Below, in pieces: positions 15,821 through 31,722 of a stretch of 37,750 bases of DNA (its first letter is position 1; the number at the start of each line of letters is the position of its first letter). The notes under the pieces were generated by a model. The model searched no databases, was not told where the DNA came from, and worked only from the letters and a program-made list of their open reading frames with translations. Where the stretch lies: positions 1 through 37,750 of IMG/VR virus record IMGVR_UViG_3300047550_001190. One strand, written 5' to 3'. The DNA is from a virus. The position numbers and the translations under genes are program-made.

Positions 15821-15851
15821 AAAACCGGTGGCGTATAAAAACCGCCACCGG
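15821..15851 (-). terminator. Terminator-like hairpin between SSB and recA
   Basis: A 9-bp GC-rich stem CCGGTGGCG/CGCCACCGG with a 9-base loop, followed on the minus strand by TTTT. The T run is short, so partial termination (SSB made in excess over RecA) is likely. Confidence 0.6.
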
Positions 15852-15865
15852 CTTAATTTAATTTT

Positions 15866-16771
15866 TTAGGAGTTGAACAAATCGTCAAACGCCTTTTCGA
15901 CATCATTCTTTGGAGCAGCTGCCTTCTTGGCTGTTGGAGAAACAACAGTCTTAGTTGGGGCAACAGGCTTTGATGGTGCCGGAGCTGATGTCGGAGCTGG
16001 TGCCGCTTTCTTAACTTCGGCAACAATCTTTGCATCAAAAGGTGCATCATCCGTCACAGCGGTTTCCTCTTCGGAAACAACTGGAGTTTCAACTTCACCT
16101 TCCGTCTCTGGATTCAACCACTTATCCATCACATCCTTGAGTTCATCGTAAGACAACTCTGGGAATAGATCAAGAATATTGGTCTGATTCTTAAGAGACT
16201 CAATCAACTGAGCATTCTTAGGGTCAACTGCTGGTGTGACACTTGGCTTCACACGAACAGTGGTTTCAGGAAAACTCTTTCCAGATTCTTCAGCTGTCTT
16301 GAATTCAACAGTAATATCACGACCATTGGCGAGGTCAGTAATATCACCATATTCTGCGTCCAAACAAACTGAGACGAGTTCTTGATAAACAGTCTTACCG
16401 AAACCCCAGAACTTCACACCTTCATTCTCTTCACCACGAACGATGACTGGAGCGAATGTGCGCATCTTGGGTTCCATCTTACGACCCATCTGCCAATCTT
16501 CCTTGGAACCAGTCTTCTTCAAACGATTAGCAAATTCCACGATAGGATCTGGACGACCAAAACTATCTGGTGAAAGATAAGTCTTGCCGTTGATATTATA
16601 ATGGAACTTGAGTTCGATGAAAGGGTTCTCAGGATTGAACTTGTAGGGAACAATACGAACGACTTGTTTTCCAGGCTTGGGTTTCCAAAGAAGATCGTTT
16701 TTCTTGTTATTGGAACCTTGGTTTGAAAGGGAGTTCAAACGACTCTTTAGCTGCGATATATTTAACGCCAT
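15866..16771 (-). CDS. Single-stranded DNA-binding protein, gp32-like
   Basis: A 301-aa protein, the same length as T4 gp32. The N-terminus (LNISQLKSRLNSL) fits the helical basic segment that makes gp32 binding cooperative. The core has KPGKQVVRIVPYKFNPENPF and a block beginning LKFHYNING. An Ala/Pro/Lys-rich linker (about 255-285) leads to an acidic tip, DVEKAFDDLFNS, the usual partner-binding tail. The T4 zinc site is absent: the only Cys is in SVCLDAEYG, outside a Cys/His cluster. gp32 coats single-stranded DNA and recruits helicase loader, polymerase and recombinase. Its leader contains a promoter, two hairpins and an AT-rich repeat tract suggestive of gp32-type autoregulation. Confidence 0.88.
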   Translation of the reverse strand: MALNISQLKSRLNSLSNQGSNNKKNDLLWKPKPGKQVVRIVPYKFNPENPFIELKFHYNINGKTYLSPDSFGRPDPIVEFANRLKKTGSKEDWQMGRKMEPKMRTFAPVIVRGEENEGVKFWGFGKTVYQELVSVCLDAEYGDITDLANGRDITVEFKTAEESGKSFPETTVRVKPSVTPAVDPKNAQLIESLKNQTNILDLFPELSYDELKDVMDKWLNPETEGEVETPVVSEEETAVTDDAPFDAKIVAEVKKAAPAPTSAPAPSKPVAPTKTVVSPTAKKAAAPKNDVEKAFDDLFNS

Positions 16772-16853
16772 AATTAGTTTAATTAGTTAATTAGTTTAAT
16801 TGGTTAATTAGTTAAATGTCTTAATTCACTTAAATTAAGATTCTTAACGAATC
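16772..16853 (-). promoter_or_regulatory. SSB mRNA leader: hairpins plus AU-rich repeats
   Basis: After the promoter, the leader folds as hairpin GATTC-GTTAA-GAATC (16853-16839), an adjoining CTTAAT/ATTAAG hairpin (16839-16820), then about 45 nt made only of repeated AATTAA/CTAATTAA units running into the ATG. The GTTAA loop can pair with TTAAC further down, allowing a pseudoknot. T4 gene 32 mRNA uses a pseudoknot followed by an unstructured AU-rich tract for autorepression by gp32. The similarity is in layout, not proven in function. Confidence 0.5.
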
Positions 16854-16864
16854 ACCATGACGAC

Positions 16865-16893
16865 ACTCTACACCATGTATAGAAGACCGTCAA
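16865..16893 (-). promoter_or_regulatory. Sigma70-type promoter for SSB
   Basis: Minus strand TTGACG (16893-16888), 17-bp spacer, TAGAGT (16870-16865). It gives a leader of about 90 nt. Confidence 0.55.
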
Positions 16894-16907: not shown

Positions 16908-17303
16908 TCACCACGAAAGTATAGAAAACAGTTTTAGTTGGACAATTTTAACGCCTGGATCAGATATAAGAATAATACAATTTTTATATAAATCCCAGTT
17001 AAGTTGAAATGTTTTATCAAACACACCTTCATTTTCATCTACAATCAAACGATTCATAGCATTAAGTGTATAAAGCGTATTGGTTTGTTTTTTCCTATGA
17101 ACACTAATTGTATTGGGGTATTTAACTTTAGAATTAGGATCTTTGACTACATTAAAAGTCAAATATATTTCTCTTAAATTTTTCTCATTAGTAAACACAA
17201 ATATTTTGTTGTCAATTAGATCGTAGGTATTTTTAATTTCTTCTACGACTGACAAATACTTTGTGCTATCAGAAAATGTGCAAAGTAATTGTTTTTGTAT
17301 CAT
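16908..17303 (-). CDS. Hypothetical protein, 131 aa, ATGA-coupled
   Basis: No family recognised. The protein begins MIQKQLLCTFSDS and contains a block reading TISVHRKKQTNTLYTLNAMN and a C-terminal segment KNCIILISDPGVKIVQLKLF, probably alpha/beta. The frame stays open further upstream to 17366, but the ATG at 17303 overlaps the stop of the upstream gene as ATGA, the classic coupling arrangement, so I prefer the shorter form. It is the last gene before the SSB promoter and shares the transcript of the 624-aa gene. Possibly a minor virion or assembly protein; this is inference from position. Confidence 0.65.
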   Translation of the reverse strand: MIQKQLLCTFSDSTKYLSVVEEIKNTYDLIDNKIFVFTNEKNLREIYLTFNVVKDPNSKVKYPNTISVHRKKQTNTLYTLNAMNRLIVDENEGVFDKTFQLNWDLYKNCIILISDPGVKIVQLKLFSILSW

Positions 17304-19174
17304 GTCGATGTTGGTTCTACTGGCATAACATCTGGCGTAGATTGTGTTGGCATTTCCCAAGTCCAAGCTCCATCTGCTTCTCCTTGTATACCCAACATTT
17401 CAGTAAATTTCATCCATCCTTCTTGTATAATTGATTTCATGTATCTTCCAAGCTTTAGTATATCTTCATAGATACTTTGTAACCCTGCTTTTACTGATTC
17501 CCACGCCTTGGTAAAAAATTCTTTTGCTTTTCCAGTCAAAGATTGAATGTCCTTCCATACATCACCAAAGTAATTTGAAATGTATGTTCCTGCAGACTTG
17601 ATTGTGTCCATCAATCCTTCATCAAGTTGAATTTCTTCTAATTTGATATCACCACGAATAGAAATTCCACGAACGCCTCCACGATTTGAAAATCTAAACT
17701 TGATGTTATTGTCATTATCTTTTATAAACTTGGTGACGGTATAGATGTGATAATTACCAGAACAATCCCAAGTCATCATATGATCGGCAATACAATCTGC
17801 TCTAAAATTTGCTTTTCCTTGTGCAAATCGACGTTTTCCAGTTGCCAACTCTTCAATCAACATATAGCGACGTTCTGGATTAACGAAAACACTGTTCAAT
17901 GTTTCTAGTGTCTTGGTCATATCAATTGGTATTTGACCTTTTTTAACGAAACTCTTGTTTTGTTTAATAATATTTTCTACATTTTGAATATCATCTTTGA
18001 TGTCTTCCACTGAAGCGCCACGTATTACTGCTGTCAATGACTTATGAAGTTGTTCTTTGACAGAATCTTGAAGTCCAACATAAAACTTCTTCTCAATACC
18101 ATTCAATATAAATGATGATACTTGTTCCATTAATACTTTATCTTCACCAGAATCTTCTAATATTGCTGATACCACAGAGTTTACTTCAGCATTTTGAGCA
18201 CTACAAATTTGAGCACCAGTGGCTTTCAAACTGGCTCTCATTCTTTTCTTTCCACCAAAAATCAAATCGGTCTTGGATGTGCTATTCAATTGTGTAAATA
18301 ACGGATTTGTAATTGGACATGTTTTGTCACCCAACGCGTCACATGTTTTGATACCATCAATTTTACTCAATTTAGCAGCAATTAAAGCAGCAGTCTTATC
18401 GCCGGATGGTCTGTTATTTAATTCATCTGCAATGTAAAACTCCATCTTTTGAGCATTACATGATGACTTTTCAGAAATGATTACTGGACCTGCAGACTCT
18501 TTGTATACTTGTTCACCAATTAATTTTCCGTCTAACTTATACCAATTGAATCCATTTTTTACAAACCCACATTTGATTGCTTCTTCAATTGTATATTCAT
18601 CTTTATCACATTCATTACATCCACAATCTTCACATTCGTCTACTTGTTGATTAATTAGTGGAGCGTCATTTAAGATAGCATTTACAGCAACGGCATCTTG
18701 TGACTTTTCTTTTGATGTTCTATCGTCTTTTTTGTCATCACCGGTGATCTTTTTATCTAGTTCTTGATCAAGAGATACTGTGTCAGATTTGTCTGAGTCT
18801 TGTTTTTCTTCCTCAGAATCGGTCTTTTCAATATCAGCGGTTGAGAGTCCGCCTGCATCAGTAGGCGAGAATAATGTTCCAACGTTCTTTTTAGGATTTT
18901 CTGCAAAATGTGTTCCTTTATCAACTGCTCTATCACGATATTCTTTACTAGGAAATGTAACTAAAATACCGTCTTTATTGTATGCTTGACGTTCTGGGAA
19001 TTTGCCCGCCTCAAACAATTTAGCCGTATTGTTTACAATTGTTTCTAAACTAAACCCCGCTTTTTCTAGATATTCTTGTAAAACAAATACGTGTTCAGGC
19101 ACTTCTAGCCTCAACACGCCATCTTTTATACGACTGTCACAACAAACATCGTTTATAATTGAGTTGAATTTCAT
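17300..19174 (-). CDS. Large modular protein with Cys cluster, probable virion protein
   Basis: A 624-aa protein. Start: the ATG at 19174 is preferred to the TTG one codon earlier. Segments: N-terminal domain (1-100), acidic Ser/Asp/Lys linker (about 115-160), a cysteine cluster CEDCGCNEC (CxxCxCxxC, near 181-189) that could bind a metal, a central domain of about 290 residues including STSKTDLIFGGKKRMRASLK and TGAQICSAQNAE, and an amphipathic helical C-terminus with repeated Trp (DVWKDIQSLTGKAKEFFTKAW), possibly membrane-active. I have a vague memory of the KTD..I/LIF..K.R.SLK..GAQ pattern in T4-like marine phage proteins of unknown role. The TATTTATA motif is four bases before the start. 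Confidence 0.7.
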   Translation of the reverse strand: MKFNSIINDVCCDSRIKDGVLRLEVPEHVFVLQEYLEKAGFSLETIVNNTAKLFEAGKFPERQAYNKDGILVTFPSKEYRDRAVDKGTHFAENPKKNVGTLFSPTDAGGLSTADIEKTDSEEEKQDSDKSDTVSLDQELDKKITGDDKKDDRTSKEKSQDAVAVNAILNDAPLINQQVDECEDCGCNECDKDEYTIEEAIKCGFVKNGFNWYKLDGKLIGEQVYKESAGPVIISEKSSCNAQKMEFYIADELNNRPSGDKTAALIAAKLSKIDGIKTCDALGDKTCPITNPLFTQLNSTSKTDLIFGGKKRMRASLKATGAQICSAQNAEVNSVVSAILEDSGEDKVLMEQVSSFILNGIEKKFYVGLQDSVKEQLHKSLTAVIRGASVEDIKDDIQNVENIIKQNKSFVKKGQIPIDMTKTLETLNSVFVNPERRYMLIEELATGKRRFAQGKANFRADCIADHMMTWDCSGNYHIYTVTKFIKDNDNNIKFRFSNRGGVRGISIRGDIKLEEIQLDEGLMDTIKSAGTYISNYFGDVWKDIQSLTGKAKEFFTKAWESVKAGLQSIYEDILKLGRYMKSIIQEGWMKFTEMLGIQGEADGAWTWEMPTQSTPDVMPVEPTST

Positions 19175-19178
19175 CAAT

Positions 19179-30933: not shown

Positions 30934-31722
30934 TTATTTTGGCTTTATTTTATTTTGAGCATCTTGAGCCGCTTTAGTCAAAATTGTAGCTCTGGTATTA
31001 ATTTTAGCAATAGCATCTTTAAATTTTGATTCTGGCCCAATTAACGCATCCATAAAACTATTGTCTTCCTTGATCATTTGTTTCACTATTTCCTTATACT
31101 TTTGTTTTTTAGCTTCATCCATAGATTTATTTTTGGTTAATATATTATAAATACTTTTGACCACACCAGTTTTTACACCTGGATAATTAGTGGTAAAATT
31201 TTCAAAATCGTTGTTTGCTAAATCTTGTCTCAATGTGCTAGCACTGATACTTTGTCCGTTTTTGTCATCAGATCTACCTTGATACAATACTGGAGCATCA
31301 TCAGTCATTTCCACAGACGATACATTTTCTGGTGCTGTTCGGCCGTCCTTTGTTGGTTTAGTTTTATAACGTTGAACAGCAGCAGAAAATATCTTGCTTC
31401 GTTTTGCGTCTTCTGGACTCTTTGAACTTGCAGCCAAAGCAATCACTTCATTACTGTCTTTTGGCAAACTAAATACATATCCAAATGCAGCGTTCATTGG
31501 ACTGTCATCATCTACTGGAACCACTTTGATCTTTGGGTTGGTAGGCAATAGGTTCCAAATGGCCACACTTTGTTGACGGTTAATGCCATCACGTTCACTG
31601 GGTCCAACCATCACAATTACTTTGCCTACATCAGCCCTACTGGCAAATTTGTTAGCTAACCCCAAATGTCCAGCATGTGGTGGTTTGAATCCGCCTGGTA
31701 GTAGCACCGTTACTTTGTTCAT
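30934..31722 (-). CDS. HxGH-motif nucleotidylyltransferase with helical tail
   Basis: A 262-aa protein of the cytidylyltransferase/NMN adenylyltransferase superfamily. Nucleotide-binding motif GGFKPPHAGHL (10-20, HAGH 16-19) and the C-terminal signature ISASTLR (159-165, family ISxSxxR) are both intact, so it is probably active. The substrate cannot be read: NMN (NAD salvage), a lipid head group or a sugar phosphate are all possible. After the catalytic domain comes about 70 residues of charged helix (DEAKKQKYKEIVKQMIKEDN), unusual for such enzymes. It lies between gp19 and the chaperone gene in the tail operon, with a TATTTATT motif three bases before the ATG, so it is expressed with virion genes. 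Confidence 0.75.
   Translation of the reverse strand: MNKVTVLLPGGFKPPHAGHLGLANKFASRADVGKVIVMVGPSERDGINRQQSVAIWNLLPTNPKIKVVPVDDDSPMNAAFGYVFSLPKDSNEVIALAASSKSPEDAKRSKIFSAAVQRYKTKPTKDGRTAPENVSSVEMTDDAPVLYQGRSDDKNGQSISASTLRQDLANNDFENFTTNYPGVKTGVVKSIYNILTKNKSMDEAKKQKYKEIVKQMIKEDNSFMDALIGPESKFKDAIAKINTRATILTKAAQDAQNKIKPK

Follow-up and report, generated by a model that had tools for sequence, protein, structure and literature searches.

The window, a 37.75-kb IMG/VR virus fragment, comes from a T4-like phage whose minus strand carries nearly all genes. At 15866..16771 on this strand lies the gene of a gp32-type single-stranded DNA-binding protein (SSB), identified by Pfam, PHROG, structure profiles and predicted fold. 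The protein matches Pfam gp32 (PF08804, E 9e-14) and PHROG ssb (E 4e-17), a profile search pairs it with the T4 gp32 structures 8gme and 1gpc, and the core of its predicted fold scores Z 14.7 against RB69 gp32 and Z 14.4 against T4 gp32, far above the Z 5 of the next structure, an unrelated one. The gp32-type OB-fold core, N-terminal helix and C-terminal tail are all present, and a C-terminal F(D/N)xLF is conserved. The zinc site of T4 gp32 consists of one His and three Cys. Conserved cysteines are absent from our 48-protein SSB alignment, and since the window SSB thus lacks the cysteine-rich zinc site of gp32, its RNA preferences may differ from those of gp32.

Downstream of ssb follow genes for a UvsX-like recombinase, a 5'-3' exonuclease and a DnaB-like helicase, an order common to Microcystis phage Mel-JY01 and Flavobacterium phage immuto, which are the nearest cultured relatives by SSB identity (54% and 40%, respectively). 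Between ssb and the uvsX-like gene, a GC-rich inverted repeat (CCGGTGGCG/CGCCACCGG) followed by TTTT at 15825-15851 (minus) looks like an intrinsic terminator, in which case ssb would be a single-gene transcript. The gap upstream of the ssb leader is occupied by a possible gene, a 152-aa open reading frame with a TTG start (16908-17366, minus) that overlaps the end of 17300-19177 and has no Pfam or PHROG match. Elsewhere on the minus strand, 718-1629 resembles by eye a UV damage endonuclease of the UvsE/UvdE type, and 30934-31722 a nucleotidyltransferase with a GGFKPPHAGH motif.

A preliminary description of the locus placed a promoter, two small hairpins, a loop able to pair downstream and an AU-rich tract at 16772-16893, and all of these elements are found there on the minus strand. 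The sigma70-like promoter TTGACG-N17-TAGAGT lies at 16893-16865, a consensus match that says nothing of its use. The named hairpins, GAUUC-GUUAA-GAAUC and UCUUAAUUU-AAGU-GAAUUAAGA, are present, a UUAAC can pair with the loop of the first, and the AAUUAA-type tract of about 45 nt ends at the ATG. The hairpins do lie between the promoter and the start codon, and the promoter region adds a third, longer hairpin, which we call P0 (16892-16858, minus). The window leader (16757-16858) folds more stably than dinucleotide shuffles (z -2.65, or -3.1 with the promoter region included), and its minimum-energy fold is nested, with an outer helix, P1, enclosing a hairpin, P2.

To compare this leader with those of related phages, we ran five SSB-query scans of IMG/VR viral contigs, which gave 305 usable loci and 100 distinct leaders. 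A promoter-like TTGA(C)-N17-TANNNT with a nearly constant spacing of 17, a hairpin about 56 nt before the ATG and UUAA repeats reaching the ATG recur among these relatives. The SSB proteins associated with such leaders are about 57-80% identical to that of the window, so that they constitute one clade and their leaders are not independent samples; we allowed for this kinship by using distinct rows, arm swaps between phages, non-redundant representatives and an SSB tree. Six loop-anchored rows had a misplaced hairpin (L229, L287, L181, L165, L241 and L143), of which two were re-placed and four excluded in the tree and G-U counts.

The P2 hairpin (UCUUAAUUU-AAGU-GAAUUAAGA; 16840-16819, minus) combines a conserved [G/A]NGU tetraloop with a stem that covaries among relatives. 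The loop letters that anchor the rows are GAGU (58), GUGU (16), AAGU (10) and GGGU (2). Over eight stem positions, 89.8% of cells in the ungapped loop-anchored rows are paired and 188 are double-change cells, whereas arms swapped between phages are on average 56% paired with 60 double-change cells (maxima, 63.7% and 81) and arms slid by one pair at 47-53%. Double changes are present in all eight pairs, the SSB tree implies about 47 double changes and 56 single G-U steps, and RNAalifold recovers P2 unprompted from the leader alignment. Together, these results establish the P2 helix. The hairpin and the repeats, whose conservation the preliminary description had left to be checked, both recur among the 100 distinct leaders. 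In one sub-clade (L085-L089, L093, L096 and L098), a UUAACUA/UAGUUAA-type hairpin occupies the P2 position, mostly without the standard [G/A]NGU loop, and P1 is ambiguous there. A kissing interaction, in which ACU/ACAC farther downstream would pair with the [G/A]NGU loop, was also considered and rejected, as GUGU loops and ACAC, inspected by eye, do not covary consistently.

The 5' strand of P1 (UGGUGAUUCGUUAAG; 16843..16857, minus) lies just downstream of the expected start site of the promoter, and its 3' strand (UUUAACUAAUUAACCA; 16801..16816, minus) is made of the first UUAA repeats. In most leaders the 5' strand reads GUURGUUA (GGUGAUUCGUUAAG in the window), and its partner is the first repeats after P2 (UAACUAAUU). 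Among 24 non-redundant leaders, the duplex energy of each leader's own strands is -8.5 kcal/mol compared with -7.0 kcal/mol (sd 0.37) for swapped partners, and the own-strand value is reached in 1 of 5,000 permutations. Supplied to the alignment as a helix and then tested, P1 is 91% paired in the fitted alignment, with double changes at four pairs and otherwise mostly one-sided G-U changes; RNAalifold alone gives P2 only on the leader alignment, not P1. P1 is thus well supported, although less so than P2. Taken together, the two helices are 93.6% paired in the model-fitted alignment, with 146 double-change cells as opposed to 36.5 in shuffled controls.

The pseudoknot proposed in the preliminary description does not recur in this way. 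Apart from the window, its GAUUC/GAAUC stem occurs in just three near-identical relatives, and the conserved form is nested. Across 19 leaders the pseudoknot stem pairs at chance (35.9%, compared with 34.7% when shuffled). The covariation sought among relatives is borne out for the P2 stem. P1/P2 and the pseudoknot could form at different times in the window RNA, but the pseudoknot is unsupported there.

Each of the three helices has many more G-U pairs than A-C mismatches (P2, 38:7; P1, 62:4; P0, 44:4), indicating selection on the mRNA-sense RNA. The bias in P0, which overlaps the promoter, further suggests that P0 itself is transcribed and hence that some transcripts probably start upstream of it. 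P0 covaries in the clade of the window, where it is 92.4% paired with 34 double-change cells versus 9.7, and it is missing from the deeper clade. L101, L113, L139 and similar leaders of that clade have, in place of P0, two direct copies of TAGTTATA at about 85-60 nt before ssb, one in the -10 region and one in the P1 strand. Just upstream of P0 in the window lies TATTTATA (16903-16896, minus), which resembles an element upstream of several other window genes, this copy being preceded by G rather than A/T. It is possibly a phage late-type promoter, which would place P0 in the transcript, and P0 perhaps belongs to a second leader that is longer. The motif WTATTTAT has 12 copies on the minus strand of the window, of which 8 precede a gene start by 10-33 nt, with sites at, for example, 8617, 12046, 19187, 29870, 31734, 32322, 33524 and 35998 (minus), and it is a candidate phage promoter element.

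The UUAA tract (16772..16816, minus) runs into the start codon and is G-free, without a Shine-Dalgarno sequence; in relatives it is conserved as UUAA repeats. UUAA occurs in the window at -44, -36, -28, -19 and -11, and again at +6 within the gene, and the tract is the second-highest-scoring tandem array of the window (score 80, period 17/8-9). The last 45 nt before the window ssb hold five UUAA, compared with at most two before other window gene starts, and the mean over 97 ssb leaders is 3.8, compared with 0.28 (maximum, 2) for 198 other open reading frames of the same loci. The spacing has a mode of 7-8 nt (183 of 268 intervals), which is close to the 7 nt occluded per monomer of T4 gp32 (PMC10484735). 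The last 35 nt are G-free in 82 of the 100 leaders, and a Shine-Dalgarno-like motif is found in none of the 100; such a motif occurs in only 9 of 32 window genes, indicating that starts without one are usual in this phage. The comparison with T4 also implied an unstructured tract, which holds only moderately in silico: the mean unpaired fraction is 0.54 for the window tract and 0.60 for those of relatives, compared with 0.47 for other genes, as P1 takes up the first 16 nt. With this first third of the tract taken up by the helix, about 29 nt remain before the ATG.

We assessed the specificity of the element with a covariance model (R1) built from 19 leaders. The model finds matches in 59 of 74 sources at E values up to 1, every one of them immediately before ssb. 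Each of nine contigs that span 95-304 kb likewise yields its ssb leader, with weak extra matches in two. It has no match in T4, an RB69-genus phage, Mel-JY01, immuto, KVP40, P-SSM4, HTVC008M, Aeromonas 25 or YB07. Among cultured gp32 leaders, T4 has four UUAA in 45 nt and the others compared have 0-2. The repeats and the hairpin are both absent from five cultured relatives with a gp32-like SSB (Mel-JY01, immuto, KVP40, P-SSM4 and HTVC008M), suggesting that autoregulation by way of such a leader is not general to the family. A search with 4,227 Rfam covariance models gave no match at gathering score in the window and only chance-level matches at permissive E-values.

Repression of its own mRNA by T4 gp32 begins with nucleation on a pseudoknot, from which the protein coats a UUAAA-rich tract covering the start (PMC535899, PMC3014915), and both the UUAAA repeats and the 5' structure are essential for this repression (PMC535899). 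As a gp32-type SSB, a structured 5' element and AU-rich repeats are conserved together here, the best reading is that this leader works like that of T4 gene 32. It is probably a cis-regulatory RNA, a T4-like but pseudoknot-free operator by which the gp32-type SSB of the phage controls its own translation. The fold is conserved, its location is specific to ssb and the UUAA track is periodic; from these features we infer binding, cooperativity on the leader RNA and repression. SSB in excess of the available ssDNA would bind the leader at the P1/P2 border and polymerize cooperatively along the repeats, with about one monomer per repeat, and the resulting filament would hide the start codon from the ribosome. 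As ssDNA appears, SSB would be drawn away and translation would resume. P1 and P2 would set where the filament nucleates or has its 5' edge, which is the role of the pseudoknot in T4. The similarity between repeat spacing and SSB site size points to a way in which one mRNA could be singled out by a protein that otherwise binds ssDNA non-specifically.

The same tract could instead be a translation enhancer, in which a G-free, AU-rich 30S site without a Shine-Dalgarno sequence is bound, for example, via S1, and the hairpins keep the site open or serve as standby, with no SSB feedback. SSB is required in large amounts, and an AU-rich tract of this kind could simply be a strong ribosome site, as the lack of Shine-Dalgarno-like motifs in the leaders, their mostly G-free last 35 nt and the commonness of such starts in the phage would allow. 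An S1 site, however, has no need of a 7-8-nt periodicity or of a covarying hairpin with a conserved loop, and more than two UUAA are found before none of the 198 other open reading frames of the window or its relatives, so that we consider an enhancer unlikely. The conserved tetraloop on a stem that is free to vary is typical of a target for a loop-reading protein, and the hairpin read by T4 gp43 (PMC3014915) provides a precedent for a different regulator, be it a phage repressor (RegA-like or of the polymerase type) or a host RNA-binding protein that recognizes the [G/A]NGU loop. This appears improbable: across the loci and contigs searched, ssb is the only gene preceded by a strong copy of the element, which fits autoregulation rather than a regulon, and the UUAA repeats match a known SSB ligand.

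No more credible is that the hairpins mainly stabilize or process the ssb mRNA, by 5'-end protection or as a nuclease site, with the repeats as an incidental spacer. The structures do stand close to where the mRNA is expected to begin, both P0 and P2 combine stability with conservation, and T4 gene 32 mRNA is itself unusually stable and processed (PMC535899, PMC3014915); yet such a role leaves the conserved UUAA repeats and the [G/A]NGU loop unexplained, and the deeper clade has no P0. The combination of a promoter, inverted repeats and AT repeats might also be seen as a DNA-level element, either palindromic operators or an origin that unwinds at an AT-rich stretch. We give this almost no credence, as the arms covary rather than keep their sequence and G-U exceeds A-C in all three helices.

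Beyond the autogenous operator as such, we tentatively propose, at somewhat short of even confidence, that these leaders represent an undescribed class of SSB-mRNA operator, in which a covarying two-helix RNA capped by [G/A]NGU sets the register of an SSB filament on a UUAA track of 7-8-nt periodicity over the start, with P0 as a promoter-dependent alternative in the clade of the window. The element is undetectable in T4 and the other cultured relatives compared, and non-pseudoknot autoregulation may therefore have arisen separately among gp32-type SSBs.

The closest known system is the T4 gene 32 operator, with its RB69 counterpart, in which a gp32-family SSB is likewise controlled and a folded 5' element likewise lies about 40-70 nt upstream of a contiguous AU tract with UUAA over the start (four UUAA in 45 nt in T4, five in the window leader). 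The T4-like layout that had been suggested for the window therefore stands for the gp32-type SSB, the structured 5' element and the AU-rich repeats over the start, but not for the pseudoknot fold. The accompanying statement that the sequence is unlike that of T4 was partly wrong, as both tracts consist of UUAA repeats (T4, TGTTAATTAAATTAAATTAA). The T4-type operator carries a 5' RNA pseudoknot of about 28 nt, where the leader has nested P1/P2 helices and a conserved tetraloop; UUAA recurs every 4-5 nt in T4 and as UUAA(C/A) every 7-8 nt in the leader; and T4 has the Shine-Dalgarno sequence AAAGGA, where the leader has none. The operator of T4 gp43, the DNA polymerase, is similar in that the protein recognizes a simple hairpin, conserved in its loop and about 40 nt ahead of the gp43 start, together with sequence over the ribosome site (PMC3014915), but this operator serves another protein, and its description is without UUAA repeats. 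The STAXI motif (Weinberg et al. 2010) is also a structured element often found near SSB genes, but it consists of tandem pseudoknots with frequent UUCG loops (PMC2864571). The gene 32 leader of RB49 keeps UUAA/UUAAA units without a recognizable pseudoknot (PMC535899) and in this respect resembles the leaders described here, a comparison made with its description, which mentions no covarying hairpin. The RB69 study noted that whether RB49-like phages repress their own gene 32 remains to be seen (PMC535899). The leader analyzed here is a conserved, pseudoknot-free candidate for such repression in a large clade, and its 100 natural variants and covariance model make the question of repression without a pseudoknot directly testable.
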